This document shows positions 1-49,829 of a stretch of 49,829 nt of DNA, piece after piece. The stretch is taken from IMG/VR virus record IMGVR_UViG_3300024302_000017, positions 1 through 49,829 of that record; one strand, 5' to 3'. Under the pieces are notes generated by a model. That model did not search any database and was not told the DNA's origin. It saw only the letters and a list, made by a program, of their open reading frames with translations. This DNA comes from a virus. Position 1 is the first letter of the stretch. The number at the start of each line of letters is the position of its first letter. Both the position numbers and the translations under genes were made by a program.

Positions 1-2
1 GT

Positions 3-236
3 AATGTTTGGGAAATGCAACCTGATACAACGAATAAACACCCAGCACCTTTTCCTTTAGAGTTACCAACAAAGTGTATAACTTATTATTCCTATGAGGG
101 ATGGACTGTGCTTGACCCATTTATGGGTAGTGGAACAACAGGAGTGGCAGCAAAAAACCTAAACAGAAAGTTCATAGGGATAGAGCTTGATCAGGAATAT
201 TTCAAGATAGCACAGGAACGCATCAGTGCCGTCTAA
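3..236 (+). CDS. DNA methylase, N4/N6 family, C-terminal part (cut by window edge)
   Basis: The frame is open to the left edge, so only the last 77 residues are visible. They hold the SAM-binding motif I, DPFMGSGTTG, preceded by HPAPFP and followed by the acidic FIGIELDQEY strand. This is the typical C-terminal end of N6_N4_Mtase-type DNA methylases, which methylate adenine N6 or cytosine N4 using S-adenosylmethionine. The catalytic (D/N)PPY motif would be upstream and cannot be checked. The internal ATG at 15 is unlikely to be the true start. The TAA stop lies inside the first 7-base element of an attC site (231-237), a hallmark of integron cassette genes. Family assignment is firm; target base and sequence are unknown. 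Confidence 0.85.
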   Translation, partial: NVWEMQPDTTNKHPAPFPLELPTKCITYYSYEGWTVLDPFMGSGTTGVAAKNLNRKFIGIELDQEYFKIAQERISAV

Positions 237-292
237 CGCCTTTGTTAACTTGCTGGCGTTTATCGCCAGTCGAGTTGAACTATTTGTTAGAC
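231..292 (+). other. integron attC recombination site 1
   Basis: All attC elements are present in order. R'' is GTCTAAC (231-237) and is perfectly complementary to R' GTTAGAC (286-292). L'' GTTAACT (244-250) is complementary to L' AGTTGAAC (273-280) except for one extra G at 277, the extrahelical base typical of attC. A central 6-bp hairpin CTGGCG/CGCCAG (253-258 and 264-269) has loop TTTAT. The total is 62 nt, within the known size range. The upstream gene stops inside R'', as cassette genes often do. The folded single strand would be the substrate of an integron integrase, which is not in this window. Confidence 0.88.
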
Positions 293-312
293 ATTACCAG
301 AGAGGATAGGAA

Positions 313-597
313 ATGGAAGGTTTTATTTTAAAAGCTCCAATTGAAATAGAGATGCAAATTAGCGTTATTAACATTGATGACCCTTCACAACTTGGGACAG
401 TAACTTACGGGCTTAGGAATGGTGAGTTTCCAACCAAAGAGGACATGCAAGCAGCGTTAAAAAAGTTTGAAAATGAAGAAATGCCAGAGGGTTTTCGCCT
501 AATGACTAAAAGAGAGTTCTTTGACAAGCTTATTCGTGAAAAGACTGGAAGCCGTGAACGTTTTGCATTACCCGGTGGTGATGATTGGAATGTCTAA
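313..597 (+). CDS. hypothetical protein in gene cassette 2
   Basis: This encodes 94 residues with an AGGATAGGA ribosome-binding region just before the ATG. It is the only gene between two attC sites, so it fits a single-gene integron cassette running from about 287 to 654. The cassette starts with TTAGAC, which together with G matches its own R'' (592-598) perfectly when circularised. The protein is mixed charged and soluble, with no signal peptide, membrane segment or motif I recognise. The C-terminal half is helical and basic (KREFFDKLIREK). The TAA stop is embedded in the R'' element of attC 2. Function unknown. Confidence 0.8.
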   Translation: MEGFILKAPIEIEMQISVINIDDPSQLGTVTYGLRNGEFPTKEDMQAALKKFENEEMPEGFRLMTKREFFDKLIREKTGSRERFALPGGDDWNV

Positions 598-660
598 CGC
601 CAAGCTAACCGGACACAAACGGCTCCTTGTTTGTGGTCCGTGTTGAGCGACTTGTTATAT
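592..660 (+). other. integron attC recombination site 2
   Basis: R'' is GTCTAAC (592-598) and R' is GTTATAT (654-660). L'' GCTAAC (604-609) is complementary to L' GTTGAGC (642-648) apart from an extra G at 645, the same extrahelical base position as in attC 1. The long inner arm 610-620 pairs with 629-640 apart from one extra G, around an 8-nt loop at 621-628. R' and R'' pair only at TAAC/GTTA, which is normal in an array because R' belongs to the next cassette. The total is 69 nt. The stop codon of the upstream gene is inside R''. Confidence 0.87.
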
Positions 661-678
661 TACGTTTTGGAGATTGTT

Positions 679-1167
679 ATGACGGCTGGGAGAAAAGTAA
701 ACACTGGTTCTACGGATTGGAACACGCCCCCAAAGTATGTAGACGCTGTGAGAGATGCCCTTGGGAGGATAGAATTTGACCCATGCTCAAATAGCTCATC
801 GATAGTGGGTGCTGATGTTGAACTGCACAGCGGTGGGCTTGATGAGGACTGGGATAAATATAACACCATATTTGTAAACCCACCTTACGGATTTGGGATA
901 GCAGATTGGTTAAAGAAGTGCGCGAATGCGAAGGGGGATGTTATTGCGTTAATACCAGTCGCACCGAACACTAAGCACTGGAAGAAATCGGTATTTACTG
1001 CTAATGCAATATGCTTTTTAGCCGATACAAGACTTCGTTTTATGATAAATGGGAATGTGAATAATAAAGGTGCAAGCATGGCCTGTTGCACAGTATTTTG
1101 GGGTAAAGACAGTGCCAGATTTGTGGATGTATTTAGCAAGTTTGGCACATGTGTAAAAGTAATATAA
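679..1167 (+). CDS. phage DNA N-6-adenine methyltransferase (Dam family), cassette 3
   Basis: This encodes 162 residues and transfers a methyl group from SAM to adenine N6 in DNA. The NPPYG catalytic motif (motif IV) sits near residue 77, after a TDWNTPPKYVDAV start and an FDPCSN segment, the pattern of the phage N-6-adenine-methyltransferase family (PF05869). I chose the ATG at 679 because GGAG lies 8 nt upstream. An in-frame ATG at 631 would begin inside the attC 2 stem. The gene starts right after attC 2 and its stop lies in ATATAAC (1162-1168), the exact complement of the GTTATAT at the cassette's left end, so it too looks like a cassette gene. A likely role is protection from restriction (inference). 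Confidence 0.88.
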   Translation: MTAGRKVNTGSTDWNTPPKYVDAVRDALGRIEFDPCSNSSSIVGADVELHSGGLDEDWDKYNTIFVNPPYGFGIADWLKKCANAKGDVIALIPVAPNTKHWKKSVFTANAICFLADTRLRFMINGNVNNKGASMACCTVFWGKDSARFVDVFSKFGTCVKVI

Positions 1168-1288
1168 CAGTGGACTATACGGAAATATAAATATGACCAA
1201 ATACGCAGCAATATCACTAGACAGGCTAGAGGAGATACAACAACATGCGGATGATACTAGAGAAGAATGAGTTGACGCATAGTTAGGC
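1162..1288 (+). other. possible degenerate third attC site
   Basis: ATATAAC at 1162-1168 overlaps the methyltransferase stop and is a perfect 7-base complement of GTTATAT (654-660), as expected for this cassette's own R''. A canonical R'-like GTTAGGC follows at 1282-1288, preceded by GTTGACG, an L'-like motif. The 127-nt span is like the long Vibrio attC type. However, I could not find the internal L''/L' complementarity, and a 25-codon reading frame lies inside. The site may be decayed, or the right end of the array may have been replaced. Confidence 0.3.
1193..1270 (+). CDS. possible 25-residue peptide
   Basis: A short frame, ATG to TGA, encodes MTKYAAISLDRLEEIQQHAD and a few more residues. 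The sequence resembles the N-termini of small phage accessory proteins that begin with a helical ERL/DRL segment. No clear Shine-Dalgarno sequence is seen. It could equally be a gene remnant next to the broken third attC. Function unknown. Confidence 0.3.
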   Translation: MTKYAAISLDRLEEIQQHADDTREE

Positions 1289-1313
1289 TGAAGCTAATAG
1301 AGAGATAATTATT

Positions 1314-1670
1314 ATGAAACACAACCAAACAATTAAACAAGCGATTGATGCTCTATTAGTTGCTATGAGTCACATCGACCCTTGTGATACAGACGCATTC
1401 ACACAAGGAAATGATGCTATTCAAGCCCTACGTGAATATCAAGGTGAATGGATTAGTGTAGAAGATAAGCCTGTTCCTATAGATGAAAAGGTAATGCTCT
1501 GCTTCCCCTTAGCTAATAATGAGTATTACATCTGCTCAGGTTATATTGCGCTTGAGGACGGATCTGTATGGGCTGATAGTGATGTTGGTGAGATAGGTTA
1601 CCTATCGTGTGATATATCACATTGGCAATCACTGCCTGAGCCACCAATGAATACAGGGGATGATAAATGA
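1314..1670 (+). CDS. DUF551-like phage protein
   Basis: This encodes 118 residues. The central WISVEDKPVPIDEKVML and the C-terminal ISHWQSLPEPP are the two conserved blocks of DUF551, a small domain common in phage and prophage accessory genes, whose function is not known. The N-terminal 45 residues are a helical extension. The gene starts after a purine-rich AGAGAGATA leader and its TGA stop overlaps the next ATG (ATGA), so translation is coupled to the following DUF2591-like gene. Confidence 0.75.
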   Translation: MKHNQTIKQAIDALLVAMSHIDPCDTDAFTQGNDAIQALREYQGEWISVEDKPVPIDEKVMLCFPLANNEYYICSGYIALEDGSVWADSDVGEIGYLSCDISHWQSLPEPPMNTGDDK

Positions 1671-2047
1671 AACACATAGACAAACTAACACCCGACCAAC
1701 TCAACCACCTTGTAGCTAAGGCACAGTGGAAGTTAAAGAAACGTGAATTCGGAGACCATTACAATACCGTAGATACGGTTGATTATTGGATTGAAAAGAA
1801 AAAGATATGGCTTAGTGAATACGACCCCTGTCACAACGGTCAGCAAGCGATGGATTTGTTGAAGAAATATAGTATCTACTTGGAACCGTTTTGGATAACG
1901 AGTAACAACATACCTTGGATAGCTTTATGTGAAAAAGCGACCGAGATAGATTGGCAAGAAGCAGATACACCAGAGCGAGCAATAACACTAGCAGTAATTG
2001 CGTCGAAGTGGGGAACTGAGATTGATGAGGAATTACTATATGCCTAA
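1667..2047 (+). CDS. DUF2591-like (NinX-type) phage protein, copy A
   Basis: This encodes 126 residues. The pattern of a short N-terminal LTPDQLNHLVAKA helix, a central NGQQAMDLLKKY block and a C-terminal TPERAITLAVIASKWGTEID block resembles DUF2591/NinX proteins of lambdoid phages, whose function is not established. The start overlaps the upstream stop (ATGA). It is a paralogue of the gene at 2099, and the last 70 nt of the two are nearly identical. It is small, soluble and without membrane segments. Confidence 0.7.
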   Translation: MKHIDKLTPDQLNHLVAKAQWKLKKREFGDHYNTVDTVDYWIEKKKIWLSEYDPCHNGQQAMDLLKKYSIYLEPFWITSNNIPWIALCEKATEIDWQEADTPERAITLAVIASKWGTEIDEELLYA

Positions 2048-2102
2048 ATACAGAGTCTATGCCGATGGAGCTGAGATTGCTGGCGGGGAGATTGAAGAAT
2101 GA
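2040..2102 (+). CDS. possible 20-residue coupling peptide
   Basis: ATG at 2040 overlaps the end of the upstream gene, and the TGA stop overlaps the next ATG (ATGA at 2099). The frame encodes MPKYRVYADGAEIAGGEIEE. The overlap at both ends suggests either a real short gene or a leftover N-terminus from the duplication that made the flanking paralogues. The GGGGAG inside it serves as the Shine-Dalgarno sequence of the next gene. Confidence 0.35.
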   Translation: MPKYRVYADGAEIAGGEIEE

Positions 2103-2503
2103 AACACATAGACAGACTAACAGAGCAGCAACTCAATCGTCTTGCAGCATTGGCACAGGAGTGGACAGCAGAAAATATAACATCTAACGTAGGGGACAAT
2201 AGAGAAAGTTTCCCTTGTTGGCGTACACATAAAGGTATTGAACCTGTAGGCAACTACACCCCAACCACCAATGGTCAGCAAGCGATGGATCTTCAGAAGA
2301 GATTTCATGTAGATGTAACTTACACGTATTCTATAGATGAAGTTCATGAGGAATTAGATGAGTCTGAATGGGTTGAGGCAGTAGTGTATCTGCAGTCTTG
2401 TGATTCGCCGAGTATTCGCAGCTCTACACCAGAGCGAGCAATAACACTGGCAGTAATTGCATCGAAGTGGGGAACTGAGATTGACGAAGGATTATTGAAA
2501 TGA
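2099..2503 (+). CDS. DUF2591-like (NinX-type) phage protein, copy B
   Basis: This encodes 134 residues. It is paralogous to the gene at 1667: both begin MKHID(K/R)LT, share NGQQAMDL in the middle and end with TPERAITLAVIASKWGTEID. The central region diverges and is longer and more acidic here. It has a good ribosome-binding site (GGGGAG) and an ATGA overlap with the next small gene. The same DUF2591 caveat applies: family resemblance without known function. Tandem duplication followed by divergence of the middle is the simplest history. Confidence 0.7.
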   Translation: MKHIDRLTEQQLNRLAALAQEWTAENITSNVGDNRESFPCWRTHKGIEPVGNYTPTTNGQQAMDLQKRFHVDVTYTYSIDEVHEELDESEWVEAVVYLQSCDSPSIRSSTPERAITLAVIASKWGTEIDEGLLK

Positions 2504-2634
2504 CTAAACAAGCAGTGGTATCAGTGAAGAAGCTGGAGGCTAAGAAAGCAAAGTTCAGGAAACTTGCAGCACGCCACAAACTGCAAGAGTACGACGACAA
2601 ATTATGGAAAAAACTAAATGATAATAACACTTGA
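2500..2634 (+). CDS. small basic protein, 44 residues
   Basis: The start overlaps the stop of copy B (ATGA) and the end overlaps the start of thyX by 17 nt. It is highly basic and helical (KKLEAKKAKFRKLAARHKLQ), which could suit nucleic-acid binding, but no family is recognised. The tight overlap on both sides argues for a real translated gene. Confidence 0.55.
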   Translation: MTKQAVVSVKKLEAKKAKFRKLAARHKLQEYDDKLWKKLNDNNT

Positions 2635-3196
2635 ACATATCACCCCCAACGCTGAAGAGCTAATCAGCAAATACAGTGCTGTCTGCTATAACAGTGACAC
2701 CACTGACCCAATCAAGAATAACAAGCGTATTAAGCACCTGATGAAGGTCAAGCACCTGTCAACACTGCGACACGCCATTGCCACCTTCAGAGTTGAGGGT
2801 ATCAGTCGTGCATGTAGTCATCAGTTTGTACGGTCAAAGCATTTGGATTTCTTACAGAGAAGTCAGAGGTATTGTAGTGAAGATGGGTTTGAAGTGGTGA
2901 AACCTGAAATGACTGTAGTGCAGGAGCTATGCTTCCAAGAAACTATAACTCACATACACTCTACTTATGATGCGCTTGTAGCTTCAGGTATGAAGAAAGA
3001 AGATGCCCGTATGGTGCTACCTAATGCCGCTACCACTGAACTAATTGTCACAGGCAACCTACAGAGTTGGAAAGATTTTATTGCTCTACGTACAGTACCA
3101 GCAGCTCAGTATGAGATCAGACAAGTGGCTCTTGGTATTGAGAGAGTGTTACAGGCTGAATGCCCTAATGTATTTGGAGAACTGAACAATGAGTAA
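2618..3196 (+). CDS. thyX: FAD-dependent thymidylate synthase ThyX
   Basis: This encodes 192 residues. ThyX makes dTMP from dUMP with methylene-tetrahydrofolate and NAD(P)H via FAD, here to feed phage DNA synthesis. The sequence shows SHQFVRSKHLDFLQRSQRY (residues 67-85), matching the ThyX signature RHRX7S, and the C-terminal ARMVLPNA ... LRTVPAAQYEIR blocks that close the active site. The signature is altered: R72-S73-K74 replaces R-H-R, while S82 is kept. It overlaps the previous small gene and the next gene (8 nt), placing it in a nucleotide-pool operon with the dNTP diphosphohydrolase-like protein. Confidence 0.88.
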   Translation: MIITLEHITPNAEELISKYSAVCYNSDTTDPIKNNKRIKHLMKVKHLSTLRHAIATFRVEGISRACSHQFVRSKHLDFLQRSQRYCSEDGFEVVKPEMTVVQELCFQETITHIHSTYDALVASGMKKEDARMVLPNAATTELIVTGNLQSWKDFIALRTVPAAQYEIRQVALGIERVLQAECPNVFGELNNE

Positions 3197-3817: not shown

Positions 3818-4239
3818 AACTACACGGCGAAGAAATTAAAGCTGGTGATAAGGTTTGGGATATTATTGAGGGTTGGGTAATAGTAGAGCGAATAGACTCA
3901 AACAATTTCCCGATTGTTGTTAGCGGACACTCATATAACAGCAAAGGGAAAGACAACACGCTAGATATCAACCCCACTATCTTCTGGGATGAGGTACACA
4001 TCACTCCACCCCCTAAACCTAAACCTAAGCCTGAGATCGACTGGTCTAAAGTACCGGAGAATACATTGGTCAGAGTGTGGGACAGGGATTGGGAGAACCA
4101 CAGAATTGCTGAGTACCATGGGTATGATACAGACCTGTCCCCCCTGCATCACTGGATAAAAGGCACTCGCAGTAACAACATATACAAACATTGTGAGCTT
4201 CACGAATCAGTCACCCCACTGCCTGAGTGGTACAAATAA
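3814..4239 (+). CDS. hypothetical protein, 141 residues
   Basis: The N-terminal half begins LHGEEIKAGDKVWDIIEGWVIVERI, reminiscent of a small beta-barrel of the SH3 or KOW kind. A proline/lysine linker (PPPKPKPKPEIDW, around residues 67-79) is followed by a second, tryptophan-rich region (VRVWDRDWENHRIAEY). Two small beta domains joined by a rigid linker is the simplest reading. No family recognised. It starts on the ATGA overlap with the DHH remnant, with AAGGAAG upstream as a good ribosome-binding site. Confidence 0.7.
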   Translation: MKLHGEEIKAGDKVWDIIEGWVIVERIDSNNFPIVVSGHSYNSKGKDNTLDINPTIFWDEVHITPPPKPKPKPEIDWSKVPENTLVRVWDRDWENHRIAEYHGYDTDLSPLHHWIKGTRSNNIYKHCELHESVTPLPEWYK

Positions 4240-4267
4240 AGAGAACACTCACCAAGGAGATGGCACC

Positions 4268-4456
4268 ATGCACGAACAAGAGTTCAAGGTAACAAACCTG
4301 AATGACGATAGAAGCGTCTTTTTTTTCAGGCACTGTATGCGCTCTGCATACTGGCACGCAACAGAGTACATAACCAGAAATAAGGGGAAGTTCCCTATGA
4401 AACTGTATCAGCTAAACAGGAGCTGCTTCGGCCCAAAATGGGTAGAGTCAAGATAA
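4268..4456 (+). CDS. hypothetical protein, 62 residues
   Basis: The start at 4268 is chosen because AAGGAG lies 9-14 nt upstream; an in-frame ATG at 4193 lies inside the preceding gene. The protein is basic and aromatic (RHCMRSAYWHATEYITRNKGKFP) without a recognised family. Its leader, 4244-4270, is repeated almost exactly at 4756-4782. A rho-independent terminator follows at 4482, so this is the last gene of the unit that begins upstream. Confidence 0.6.
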   Translation: MHEQEFKVTNLNDDRSVFFFRHCMRSAYWHATEYITRNKGKFPMKLYQLNRSCFGPKWVESR

Positions 4457-4481
4457 CCGAAAAGTTCAAACTTTTACCGAA

Positions 4482-4506
4482 CCCACCATAGCAAGGTGGG
4501 TTTTTT
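4482..4506 (+). terminator. rho-independent terminator
   Basis: The stem CCCACC/GGTGGG has loop ATAGCAA and is followed directly by TTTTTT. It ends the accessory transcription unit after the 62-residue gene. A second small hairpin (AAAAGT/ACTTTT, 4460-4475) precedes it. Confidence 0.85.
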
Positions 4507-4511
4507 ATTGG

Positions 4512-4527
4512 GCGACCAATTGGTCGC
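4512..4527. repeat. perfect 16-bp palindrome
   Basis: GCGACCAATTGGTCGC lies between the terminator at 4482 and the start codon at 4547. A fully symmetrical site directly downstream of a terminator and upstream of a new gene is well placed for a dimeric regulator (operator) or a methylation site. No binding protein can be named. Confidence 0.5.
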
Positions 4528-4546
4528 ATCAAATGGAGATAGCACC

Positions 4547-4783
4547 ATGACAACAGCAGTAAATCTAGTAACCAATACCGAACTTAGCTTCGGACAAGAA
4601 GTCCCCCCACTCTTCGCAGTCTGTTACGGATACTGTGAAGAGCGGCATCTCCTATCTGGCCTGTTTAAAGCTGTGCATGACGGCAACCTGATTGAGTTCA
4701 GCAAGCACCTTCCAGTTAGCGTAGGGGTTGACACCGTAGCATGTGGAGACTGGGCAACACTCACCAAGAAGATAGCACCATGA
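4547..4783 (+). CDS. hypothetical protein, 78 residues
   Basis: The ATG at 4547 has GGAG 11 nt upstream in the repeated leader type GGAGATAGCACC. The protein is soluble with several cysteines (AVCYGYCEERH ... VACGDWATL); no family recognised. Its last codons (TLTKKIAP) are encoded by a copy of the leader that also precedes the gene at 4268, so the C-terminus appears to have been created by copying a translation-start module. Confidence 0.6.
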   Translation: MTTAVNLVTNTELSFGQEVPPLFAVCYGYCEERHLLSGLFKAVHDGNLIEFSKHLPVSVGVDTVACGDWATLTKKIAP

Positions 4784-4872
4784 ATACTTATAGTAGTAGG
4801 CATGGATTGACCACCCATCCCGTTATACGGATTTTACCGGCCTCGTCAACCGCTTTAATTGGAGCGTTTAAT

Positions 4873-5088
4873 ATGAAAAAAACAGTATATATAGTAGCTG
4901 AATCATTGCATGAAGCATGGCTGAAAACAGCACCGTTGGTAGGGCCTGGCGGCAACCAGTGGTGTTCTTGTGAACTCCTGGACATGTATAGCCGTTACCC
5001 CTATGCGAACTATGAAAATTTGTTTACAGAGAGCCTCACCCGTTATGCAGACAGCGAGCTCTTTTTTGTCGGTGGTTGGGATAATTGA
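4873..5088 (+). CDS. hypothetical protein, 71 residues
   Basis: The frame can start at 4780, right on the repeated leader, or at 4873. I prefer 4873 because GGAG lies 8-11 nt upstream, whereas the leader copy before 4780 has lost its GGAG (AAGAAG). From 4873 the product begins MKKTVYIVAESLHEAWLKTAP, a beta-strand then a helix. It is tryptophan- and tyrosine-rich and has no known family. Confidence 0.55.
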   Translation: MKKTVYIVAESLHEAWLKTAPLVGPGGNQWCSCELLDMYSRYPYANYENLFTESLTRYADSELFFVGGWDN

Positions 5089-5095
5089 GGAATAA

Positions 5096-5179
5096 ATGAT
5101 GAAAATCTACAAAAAACAGTCGGTCAATTTCATCGACCTACAGACAAAAATTAAGGAATTGTATGCCGAAATGGGATGA
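5096..5179 (+). CDS. possible 27-residue protein
   Basis: A short frame follows the previous stop by 7 nt, with GAGGAATAA as ribosome-binding site. It encodes a basic N-terminus (MMKIYKKQS) and an amphipathic helix (DLQTKIKELYAEMG). It overlaps the next small frame. Function unknown; the tight packing supports translation. Confidence 0.4.
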   Translation: MMKIYKKQSVNFIDLQTKIKELYAEMG

Positions 5180-5225
5180 TAAAAAGAATGCTTATATTGT
5201 ATTAGAAAGCAAAGGAATAGAATAA
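5163..5225 (+). CDS. possible 20-residue protein
   Basis: The frame encodes MPKWDDKKNAYIVLESKGIE, starts after AAGGAATTGT, overlaps the previous small frame and ends in a TAATG overlap with the gene at 5225. Such TAATG couplings recur at real gene junctions elsewhere in this genome. Function unknown. Confidence 0.4.
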   Translation: MPKWDDKKNAYIVLESKGIE

Positions 5226-5491
5226 TGAAATACTGGCATAAAAGGGTTGAGGTCAGCAGTTTTTACGATTTGGAACCGGAATTCCAAATCGAAGAGCTGG
5301 AGTATTACGGTATAGAGGTAAAGGAAAATAGTTATTTTATCTCTGAAAATGGTGAATATTGGAGTATGGGAAACTTTATGCGCTCGTCGGGTGGTCGGTA
5401 CGACGGGGTAATGGGTGTCACCAACACGAGCGCGATTGGTGTTGTTTTGTCGTGCAGTGGCGATAGCGCTGTTTTACAGTGTTTTGGATAG
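5225..5491 (+). CDS. hypothetical protein, 88 residues
   Basis: The start codon is fixed by the TAATG overlap and the upstream AAAGGAATAG. The first 50 residues are acidic with many tyrosines (EFQIEELEYYGIEVKENSYF); the last part is glycine/serine-rich (RSSGGRYDGVMGVTNTSAIG). No recognised family. The final third of the DNA is richer in G and C than its surroundings, with GTGTTG/CAACAC inverted copies, which may mark a recombined end. Confidence 0.5.
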   Translation: MKYWHKRVEVSSFYDLEPEFQIEELEYYGIEVKENSYFISENGEYWSMGNFMRSSGGRYDGVMGVTNTSAIGVVLSCSGDSAVLQCFG

Positions 5492-29284: not shown

Positions 29285-32200
29285 TATTTACACACTCCGA
29301 GTTTTTTAGCTAATGATCTAAGATCTTCAACCGACGCTTCCTTCAGTTTGGAAGGTACTAGTTTACCGTCTACGAGGTATTTAGTAAAAGCAGTATCTTG
29401 AGATACCTGAACTTTGTTAGTGTAGACAAGAGGGCCCGTATCTGAAGTCTCTTCAACTTTCTCCTCTACACTCTCCTTCACACCCTCTTCTACTTTTTCT
29501 ACTACCTCTTTTGTTGCTTCTGCTTTCTTAGGAACCTGAGTGACCTTATCTATAATACTCTGGGAGTCCTCGGTCTTCTTAGCTTTAGCTTGTTGAGCTT
29601 TAACATTCTTAGCTAAGGAACCTACATCCCCAGTTAGTTTGGTAGGGGCTTTCTTAGATTTGCTGAGAAGATCTAATACAGTGTCTACTTTGGAAGAAGG
29701 TTCTGCTTTGAGACTCCCCTCTTTAGCAGTAATAGTCTCTTGCATCTTAGTAGCTGCAGTCAGTGCAGCAGTTGCATAAGCAGCCTCATCCTGGAGAGAA
29801 GCCACTAATCGATCACTTGTCCTGGGACGAACCAACCAACCATCATCACCTTCATATCGCTCATTTTCAGGAACATTAGAAGGGGCTATACTCAGGTCTT
29901 CCTTATTAACGATGAACCCTTCTGGAGGTGCATCTGTAATAGCTTCCTTGAAAGCCTTAGCTTTCTTCTGCATTCTGGTTGTAAACTTCTCGAGCTGATC
30001 CATTCCCTGTACCTGAGTCTCAGGGGTTGTAGCGGCAGCTACTAGTTCATCTACTGACTGATACTCATTCCCTGTAGCAGAGGTGATTTCATAATTAACA
30101 TCTTCTAGGGACTTACCTTCTCCTGAGATCTTGGCTCTAGCTTTGATAAGGCCTAATTTAGCCTTAGCCATCTGCTTCTCAGCAGTGGTAGCAGACTTAC
30201 TAGCAATAATGTCTGCTACGATGTTACTAGCCTCCTCAGGAGAGGTTTTATTGAGATCTGTGAGTGAATATACAAATGAATCCTTAGTCTCCTCTGAGGC
30301 CTTCTCAGACGCTCTCTCGGACACCTCTGCTCTAGATATGTATTGTTCTTTCCATGTCTCTCTAGCTGTTTGGATCTTATCTAACAGAGCCTCAGCCTCT
30401 GCTATCTCTTCCATGGATGAATCTACATCTTCAATGATGCCTGTAAGCTCACCCTCAGCTTGTAGAGCATTACCTAACACTTCCTGTAGTTCACCACTCT
30501 CCATGGCAGCAGCATCTGTGTCTGCCAGTGACGGAGCAACATCCTCAAATATCTCATCCACTGTACGGAAGGGGACTGTTTCAGTATCTAAGGAGAATGT
30601 AGATTCGGGAGATTTAGAAGCTTCAGGAAATACTTTCTTCTTGAGGATGTCTTTCTGCTCTTCTAAAAGTGCTCTACGTTCAGCAGACAACTTATCTGGA
30701 TTCGGTCTACCTTCTGTACGTTGAGCAACTAGAGCTTCACGTTTATTATCTAAACGCTCCCTATGTTTTTCAGAGATACTAGGATCAGTTAGTTTAGTCT
30801 CTAGAGCATCAATCTGCTTATTGAGAGCACTCTCCTCCTCTATATCTAGAGCTATCGTATCAGGGGTTTGTAGTTCTTGAAGGACGTTTTTAAGTACCGC
30901 ACTATCTGAGGAATTGGCTGCAGAGGTTACTGTGGATGATACCGCTGTAGGCCCTATACCACCAAGAGCCTCCATCGAACCCGCCTCTAGTGCTTCTGCA
31001 GCGGTAATGGGAGAAAGCCCTTTCGGTAAGTCCTTAGCCTGCTTCTCTGCAGCTTCACTAATTATTCCTGATGCAGCTTCACCAAGAACACCACCTATAA
31101 ATTTAGAAGAAACGCCTGCCATAAAACGGGTTAAAGAGGAACTCTTCGAGGTAACTTCAGTTACCCATTTATTAAGAGTCTTAAACGAACCTGTCAAACC
31201 TTTGAATTTTAGCAGCTCCCCCATTGTACTAATGCCCGCTAACGCGACAATTAAAGCTTGATGTTCAAGAGTAGGTTGAGCACCATTATTAGCCTTCTTA
31301 TAATCTTCAGTCATACGTGCAGTTGCATCTACAACAGCTAGCCCTATTCCTGGGACACCTAACCCTAATTCCATCATAAGAGCTGAAGATTCAAGCACAG
31401 ATTCGAAAGCAGCCATCTTACGATTATTGACATTGTACAAAAGACTTTCGACATACTCCCCTTTTTCAGCTAAGTCTCCCGACACAATACGATCATATTC
31501 AGCCTGTCGATTATCTAGCTTAGATCTAATCTCTTCAGTGTATTCATTGTATTCTTTATTACTGACGGCTAAATCTTTAGGAGATTTAATTTGGTTGTTC
31601 CAAGACCGTTTAGCATTAGTGAAGGCATTAAAAGGATTGAGGATACTGGATAAAATACCAATAGCATCTTCATTATCAGTCACAGTGCTAGCTATACTAG
31701 TTGCTGCTTTAGCTTGGGTACGCTCAGCTATTGATAAAGATGTGGTAATACGGTTTAAGAAAGATTCAGCTGTCCCTGCTTCAGCCTCAATTTTAGAAGT
31801 ATCATTATTGAGTGCAACTTCTGTCCAGCGTTGTGCCTCTTCTTCACTGAGGTCATGTTTTACAAATCCGTATTTACCTGGGGCCTTAACCGTATATAAA
31901 CTATTAGCCTGTTGAACTGCTTGTACCTTCTCATCTTTCTTGAAAGGCATCTCACGTATCTTAGCTTGTTCTTTCCAATCAGCTCTACGGTTCTCTCTGT
32001 TATATTTCTCGTAGTAGCCTAGATTGTTAATAGGATTATTGAGAGCTTTGCTAATAGATTTTCCTGTGGCAGGGTTGTACATATCAACAAGAGTACGTGT
32101 ATCCCCCTTCAAAGCAGATCTCTCATCAGAAGCTCTATACGCCACTTCTCTGAAATACATCTGAGGGTCCATATGAGTTAGTTCACCAAACTGCTCACTT

Positions 32201-49238: not shown

Positions 49239-49436
49239 TCATCTCACCTTCCACATATCTAAAGTAGCGTCACTCCATCCCTCACCGATCTCCACAACAG
49301 CCGTCATCTCTTTCGGTCCGTGGGCGCACCCGCTCATTAGTACCACGATGAAAGTAATCCACGCAACCACGAGAAGTAACTCTAACAATCGGACCAAGAG
49401 GGTGGTGATCACATCGTGTAGCTTGTCGTCCTTCAT
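49239..49436 (-). CDS. small lipoprotein, 65 residues
   Basis: A short charged N-terminus is followed by a hydrophobic helix (LLVRLLELLLVVAWITFIVV) and lipobox LMSGC with lipidated C37, then a 28-residue polar tail (HGPKEMTAVVEIGEGWSDAT). Size and layout are like Rz1-type or entry-exclusion lipoproteins of phages. It overlaps, in another frame, the zinc-finger-like gene at 49282-49485. Either or both may be translated. Confidence 0.5.
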   Translation of the reverse strand: MKDDKLHDVITTLLVRLLELLLVVAWITFIVVLMSGCAHGPKEMTAVVEIGEGWSDATLDMWKVR

Positions 49437-49485
49437 AATCGTATAGAATCATCAATCCGCAAATAGTACACTTAAAATCACTCAT
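49282..49485 (-). CDS. small zinc-finger-like protein, 67 residues
   Basis: The start at 49485 is set by an ATGAGTGA overlap with the upstream small membrane gene. Residues 1-28, MSDFKCTICGLMILYDYEGR then QATRCDHH, give C6-x2-C9 and C25/H27/H28, a plausible zinc site. The last third is arginine-rich and lies wholly within the overlap with the lipoprotein gene. Function unknown. Confidence 0.5.
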   Translation of the reverse strand: MSDFKCTICGLMILYDYEGRQATRCDHHPLGPIVRVTSRGCVDYFHRGTNERVRPRTERDDGCCGDR

Positions 49486-49570
49486 CACATTTTTCTGCGC
49501 CATACCATGTGCAATATATAATCACTACAAGGGCAATCGCGGCAGGTATTATGATTAAATAACCCATCAT
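49478..49570 (-). CDS. 30-residue membrane peptide
   Basis: It encodes MMGYLIIIPAAIALVVIIYC followed by TWYGAEKCDE, one membrane helix with an acidic tail. It overlaps the previous small gene by ATGATG/TGA and the next by ATGAGTGA. Many phages carry such single-helix peptides near lysis genes. Function unknown. Confidence 0.5.
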   Translation of the reverse strand: MMGYLIIIPAAIALVVIIYCTWYGAEKCDE

Positions 49571-49644
49571 CGCAAATAGAATAGACCAATTGAGATAGCC
49601 ATGAGTGCCATTGTAAAAAAGCCTATAAGATATATCGGTGTCAT
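49567..49644 (-). CDS. 25-residue membrane peptide
   Basis: It encodes MTPIYLIGFFTMALMAISIG and LFYLR, a single membrane helix ending in a charged residue. GGATCGAAAAA precedes the ATG, and the TGA overlaps the next start. It is the second of two tandem single-helix peptides. Confidence 0.45.
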   Translation of the reverse strand: MTPIYLIGFFTMALMAISIGLFYLR

Positions 49645-49669
49645 TTTTTCGATCCTCGTTCCATCAGTA

Positions 49670-49828
49670 TTACCTCCAGGTGTCCATTGACTCTACCAGC
49701 GTCTCAAGCTCATTTGCCATCGACTCAATAATAATTTTCTCGTTCTTATGCTCTAGTTCAATCACTATCGTCCTAGATTCCAGTTGGTCTATGCGCTTAA
49801 AGTAATCGATCAACTCTTTGCGTTTAGC
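49670..49828 (-). CDS. coiled-coil protein, C-terminal part (cut by window edge)
   Basis: The frame is open to the right edge. The visible 52 residues are a charged coiled coil (KRKELIDYFKRIDQLESRTI and onward) ending SMDTWR. The start is outside the window. It may be a small helical phage protein upstream of the lysis-like genes; an i-spanin-type soluble arm is one possibility, but no membrane anchor is visible here. Confidence 0.5.
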   Translation of the reverse strand, partial: AKRKELIDYFKRIDQLESRTIVIELEHKNEKIIIESMANELETLVESMDTWR

Positions 49829-49829
49829 T

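Follow-up and report, generated by a model that had tools for sequence, protein, structure and literature searches.

How does a marine phage come to carry a DNA methyltransferase gene as an integron-type gene cassette, and what ends the array of which that gene is the last member? The stretch analysed here, called the window throughout, is an entire IMG/VR record, complete at 49,829 bases and classed as a linear fragment. Family searches show it to encode virion RNA polymerase, portal, DNA polymerase, primase and exonuclease families, and its MoxR ATPase is 42-48% identical to those of Erwinia S6, Vibrio VBP47 and other N4-like phages (Schitoviridae). Because of these families and the ATPase identity, its predicted proteins identify the window as an incomplete contig of an N4-like (Schitoviridae-type) phage; among them is the combination by which Schitoviridae are recognised, a giant virion RNA polymerase with N4-type portal, primase and DNA polymerase. 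Since typical N4-like relatives measure about 75 kb, roughly one third of the phage genome is missing. The array stands at the left end of the contig, which belongs to the early region, and the MoxR ATPase gene lies downstream of it.

The array was delineated with a purpose-written attC scan based on R''-L''-L'-R' boxes, AAC and GTT cores and complementarity, with inner boxes TAAC/GTTG and an extra base in L' required. As Table 1 shows, two sites are found in the window, scoring 19 (attC 1) and 14.5 (attC 2); the scan finds no site beyond these, and 2 Mb of Markov-shuffled sequence gave no match. Both are complete attC-like sites, the second reading GTCTAACGCC...GTTGAGCGACTTGTTATAT. Compared with shuffled DNA, their single-strand folds have z-scores of -5.7 on the plus and -4.9 on the minus strand for attC 1 and of -2.9 and -2.7, respectively, for attC 2. 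An Rfam search of positions 1-3000 returned no attC family and nothing else relevant, and attC 1 has no BLAST match in plasmids.

Table 1. Features of the cassette array and of its right flank in the window (a slash marks the junction at the array end).
Feature	Positions	Strand	Details
Cassette 1	1-236	+	Gene cut by contig start; C-terminal 77 aa of N6/N4 adenine DNA methylase
attC 1	231-292	+	R'' GTCTAAC 231-237; R' GTTAGAC 286-292
Cassette 2	287-598	+	Starts TTAGAC; gene 313-597, 94 aa; R'' GTCTAAC 592-598
attC 2	592-660	+	R'' GTCTAAC 592-598; R' GTTATAT 654-660
Cassette 3	655-1168	+	Starts TTATAT; Dam-type gene 679-1167; R'' ATATAAC 1162-1168
Conserved array-terminal site	1166-1185	+	AAC/AGTGGACTATACGGAAA; minus strand, candidate attI-like ...CCGTATAGTCCACTG/TT
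Short ORF MTKYAAISLDRLEEIQQHADDTREE	1193-1270	+	Likeness to ORF start adjoining attC in L018
Right half (L'-R') of attC, GTTGACGCATAGTTAGGC	1271-1288	+	Strict half-site pattern
DUF551 gene	1314-1670	+	PF04448; right flank of array; also in G001, G003 and G004

Cassettes 1 and 2 each consist, as cassettes should, of a gene and then a folding attC with the extra base in L'. The stop codon of the cassette 1 gene overlaps the R'' box, and the two ends of cassette 2 are complementary at all seven positions (GTTAGAC against GTCTAAC), a relation that the initial annotation had pointed out. With two attC sites, the minimum for a CALIN (a cluster of attC sites without an integrase), and no intI found, the array is of the CALIN kind, as far as this incomplete record reaches. 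The integron integrase model TIGR02249 has no match in the window or in nine further phage records with arrays, every one of which is either partial or of unknown completeness; neither this integrase nor an attI, the marks of a complete integron, was found in the window.

The product of cassette 1 matches PF01555 (3.7e-26) and shares 63% of its residues, over 65 aa, with the full-length methylase of another phage contig, G003. The cassette 2 protein has no match in Pfam, PHROGs or NCBIfam; its relatives, at 33-43% identity, occur in five phage records only and none was found in plasmids. The product of cassette 3 scores 53.2 bits against PF05869 (cut-off 28.1; 3.7e-14) and, like its relatives in an alignment made without L004 (internal stop in the given frame), keeps the motifs DPCSN and NPPYG; a score above the gathering threshold and the catalytic NPPY place it among the Dam-type enzymes. 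Thus two of the three genes encode DNA methylases, as first proposed, and the suggestion of an array carrying modification genes holds for cassettes 1 and 3 but not for cassette 2, which has no family, nor for all of the related arrays, which also encode a helix-turn-helix regulator and uncharacterised proteins. It is plausible, from the protein families, that the methylases shield phage DNA from restriction enzymes.

The Dam-type gene is bounded by GTTATAT (654-660) and ATATAAC (1162-1168), an exact seven-base complement. This sequence occurs 15 times in the window, both strands counted, so that the chance of finding it within a given 60 bp is about 0.9%. The initial annotation had read this match as support for a cassette origin of the gene, and we consider such an origin very probable. 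Its further view, that the third attC is degraded, did not survive: after the gene there is no complete attC but only the R'' box, and the remainder of the site is exactly replaced by a conserved terminal sequence with no fold. The sequence after 1168 gave z-scores of 0.27 and 0.45-0.48, and 1155-1295, considered as a long attC, was rejected since folding showed no structure.

The ATATAAC of the Dam cassette runs directly into AGTGGACTATACGG, a motif of 14 nt that is found at the same point in other phage arrays. The junction reads GTTATAT...ATATAAC/AGTGGACTATACGG in the window and in G001 (see below), GTTAGGC...GCCTAAC/AGTGGACTATACGG in G012 and GTTATGT...ACATAAC/AGTGGACTATACGG in L272. L255, fetched by its attC alone, has the near-identical GTTATAT...ATATAAC/ACTGGACTATACAG. 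In all four of these arrays the ends of the last cassette are exactly complementary. At the DNA level, G012 is 100% identical to the window over window positions 1165-1185, the sequence after GCCTAAC being AGTGGACTATACGGAAA exactly as after the ATATAAC of the Dam gene. Since the same junction follows different last cassettes, the end of the array is a defined junction, RYYYAA/C, rather than the product of decay. Looser versions are seen in G003 (GCCTAAC/TAGATTTATACGG) and L109 (ACATAAC/ATAGCAATATACGG); the methylase cassette of L096 has an exact eight-base end match but another sequence after it. Among 2.9 million viral contigs, the exact 18-mer YAACAGTGGACTATACGG matches five (G001, G012, L272, L273 and L274), in three of them at array ends. 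The matches in L273 and L274 lie in apparent coding sequence without attC and were taken as chance.

The strict attC pattern has 11 matches in the same 2.9 million contigs, G001, G004 and G012 among them. One end of G004 (L018) consists of 130 bp of the DUF551 region of the window (1285-1414, 99%) with a complete attC directly before it. The longer array of G012 (L249), made up of complete and partial attC sites, starts after a phrog_4389-type gene, 93% matching window positions 1820-1983. In G003 the full-length N6/N4 methylase gene lies between a half attC (GTTAGGC) and GCCTAAC, its R'' box overlapping the stop codon as in the window. L272 (3300035140_000052) comes from another metagenome and has phage genes including, by eye, a terminase-like ORF; the names of the neighbourhood contigs (33000242xx-243xx) suggest related samples.

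About 100 bp 3' of the terminal motif, the window holds a half attC (GTTGACGCATAGTTAGGC) that is unique within it and recurs in G003 immediately upstream of the methylase gene; in 1.65 Mb of sequence used for comparison, the strict half-site pattern has a single match. By its sequence, the short ORF before this half-site is probably the remnant of another cassette. A leader, TGAAGCTAA(T)AGAGAGATAA, follows GTTAGGC at 1286-1313 of the window and at 6636-6657 of L017, and precedes two different genes, that for DUF551 in the window and that for the methylase in G003.

Several further features of these contigs may be recorded. A cassette at 250-540 of L249 encodes a helix-turn-helix repressor-like protein (HTH_3, 1.7e-16). 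Within 1-2900 of L096, one cassette encodes an MT-A70 methylase and another an N6/N4 methylase, and a cassette segment is repeated around 1-80 and 1231-1310. In L257, found through attC alone, inspection by eye of 3900-5300 shows a methyltransferase-like gene (GTTGGGC...GCCCAAC), after which come an attC and a gene that probably encodes a cytosine methylase. Dense imperfect repeats of the GGCAAGGC/GGCGCGGC type occupy 770-1040 and 2270-2450 of L018, in the intergenic DNA of G004.

Overall, we think it probable that the Dam-type gene is the last cassette of an integrase-less array, a CALIN, situated in the early region of an N4-like phage and closed by a precise 3' junction. A host integron integrase would have assembled the array. 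The array may then have moved between co-infecting phages by homologous recombination, for which the small early genes that they have in common, DUF551 and phrog_4389, would supply the homology. Its 3' end would represent a precise crossover at RYYYAA/C onto the conserved AGTGGACTATACGG: to judge from the sequence, top-strand recombination with a site ...CCGTATAGTCCACTG/TT, read on the minus strand, would leave the junction that is observed.

This raises the possibility, put forward tentatively, that AGTGGACTATACGG is an attI-like receiving site in reverse orientation. The reading is based on the VCR assay, where attC sites recombined through the bottom strand cross over in the R' box and those recombined through the top strand in the R'' box (PMC2727003). 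The sequence and junction position of the terminal site fit G/TT; on the strand that pairs with GTT, IntI1 usually cleaves between A and C, and at secondary sites a GTT triplet is enough for it (PMC10127599). The array of L272 opens with an attC-like site, preceded not by a gene cassette but by an apparent intergenic stretch of the phage, as the top-strand model predicts. Inverted entry through the R'' box would also make the captured genes face as they lie in these phages. That phages of several environments keep ...CCGTATAGTCCACTG/TT as a dedicated cassette-receiving site, used by a host-supplied integrase with top-strand entry through R'', is a broader proposal and a doubtful one. The following observations count against the explanation as a whole: wild-type junctions in the VCR assay were all in R', with wild-type top-strand attC recombination some 10^4-fold or more rarer than bottom-strand (PMC2727003); the search met no terminal site that lacked an array; and no related Dam gene was seen in a cassette elsewhere.

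The main rival, which we hold to be unlikely, sees in AGTGGACTATACGG a conserved promoter or leader of the gene after the array, kept by selection. An ATG indeed follows the motif within about 8-11 nt in the window and in G012, TATAC resembles a -10 box, and GCAAGGTC, further down, is common to L272 and L255. However, the ORFs 3' of the motif look unrelated, and each time the motif adjoins R'' directly, with no base between them. Nor does it occur at any relevant level in INPHARED, in PLSDB or in 369 genomes of one bacterial class.

We give little credence to the idea that the array is a canonical one whose last attC was deleted after the stop codon, the R'' box having been kept through its overlap with that codon. 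Such overlaps are seen in the window and in G003, and other partial attC sites exist (1271-1288, and several in L249), but in four unrelated contigs random deletions would not be expected to stop at the same base, next to the same 14-nt stretch.

The array is not confined to the window. G001 (IMGVR 3300024261_000051; 47,464 bases), from a second and unrelated phage, carries window positions 1-1440 with two mismatches (283 and 807); over 1441-2042 the two form a diverged mosaic. Outside the array segment (to 2503), no window ORF of at least 70 aa has a match in G001 except for one right-end protein. The presence of the array in an unrelated phage implies that it spreads among phages, which bears out the initial annotation's suggestion of exchangeable cassettes. 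Nor did we meet the same methyltransferase gene in the same place with no trace of attC: the sole other carrier found has the same attC sites. G001 has genes for a phage integrase, for an internal virion protein like that of T7 and for a large protein resembling DarB; the integrase, considered as an integron integrase, proved to be a phage-type recombinase and gives no match to TIGR02249. A second segment in common is the right contig end of the window (49239-49829), 92% identical at the DNA level to 30203-30793 of G001. The window has tandem paralogues of a phrog_4389-type gene (1667-2047 and 2099-2503), and the front of the single copy in G001 matches the first of them and its back the second, as if, by this alignment, it had arisen through recombination of one with the other. 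The two contigs begin at exactly the same base, so that the left part of the array and its true junction are unseen; the identical start suggests an assembly branch point there.

An assembly chimera, in which the array belongs to G001 alone and became joined to the N4-like contig via the common 130-bp node at 1285-1414, appears quite improbable. Three contigs (the window, G001 and L018) do meet at that node, and two of the three start at the same base. Against this stand the two SNPs within the common 1440 bp, the marked and graded divergence of the homologous sequence over 1441-2042 and the different number of phrog_4389 genes in the window and G001.

Carriage in a cassette is evidently exceptional for this gene, since attC is found within about 4 kb at none of 52 bacterial loci of Dam relatives (about 40-55% identity) and within the examined 3-4 kb at none of 79 other viral loci; across both sets the closest relatives are about 43-57% identical and the most distant about 25%. 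The initial annotation's proposal to look for the same methyltransferase in bacterial integrons thus gave nothing. That it is an ordinary phage gene beside an array ending at attC 2, with ATATAAC a chance overlap with its TAA stop, would accord with these loci, with the lack of an attC 3' of the gene and with a 7-mer chance that is low but finite, yet it is very improbable and already disfavoured through the common junction, the 14-nt motif beginning at the base after the matching box in three unrelated contigs too and the matching 8-mer of L096 lying outside the ORF, so that stop-codon overlap is not the general cause. For relatives of the N6/N4 methylase, attC was found nearby at four of 80 viral loci (L067, L096, L109 and L112), the sites of L109 and L112 being identical. 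These loci, L257 and the published survey of phage CALINs (PMC9892861) are compatible with modification genes being frequent in phage arrays, but other cassettes encode unknown proteins or regulators.

The findings provide sequence evidence that integron cassettes, DNA methyltransferase cassettes among them, are exchanged by unrelated phages, of which one is of virulent type, and the junction is precise and testable. Should the terminal site prove to be a substrate of an integron integrase, phages would have an attI-like platform and the bottom-strand rule of attC entry a natural exception.

As to known systems, the Dam-type protein shares its domain and its DPCSN and NPPYG motifs with phage Dam-type N6-adenine methyltransferases (PF05869, phrog_111), although it reaches only 25.9 bits against TIGR01712 (cut-off 97.05) and, unlike these relatives, is encoded in a cassette. 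The Schitoviridae Erwinia S6, Vibrio PJN101 and VBP47 have the MoxR ATPase (42-48%), virion RNA polymerase, portal and primase in common with the window, but the left parts of Erwinia S6 and Vibrio PJN101 are without attC. The cassettes of the array are real, and the array itself is of a type already known, the CALIN of a virulent-type phage. A 2023 survey reports such CALINs in the virulent phages TJE1, P12002L, PH101/H101 and MW202573, as attC clusters that lack an integrase and in some cases include cassettes for DNA methyltransferases (Qi et al. 2023, PMC9892861); these resemble the window array, in other phages. Of six phage attC sites assayed in that study, IntI1 is reported to have recombined five. 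Our own scan of TJE1, H101 and P12002L detects attC candidates but not the conserved terminus. What appears new is a near-identical array in unrelated phages and a conserved terminus at the R'' box, neither of which is described in the portions of that survey available to us. Compared with the chromosomal and mobile integrons of bacteria (attI, IntI and a series of gene-attC units), cassette anatomy, R'/R'' complementarity, the extra base in L' and the single direction of all genes are the same. The window array differs from them in that no integrase or attI was found and in that it ends without a complete attC, at a conserved boundary on its 3' side.
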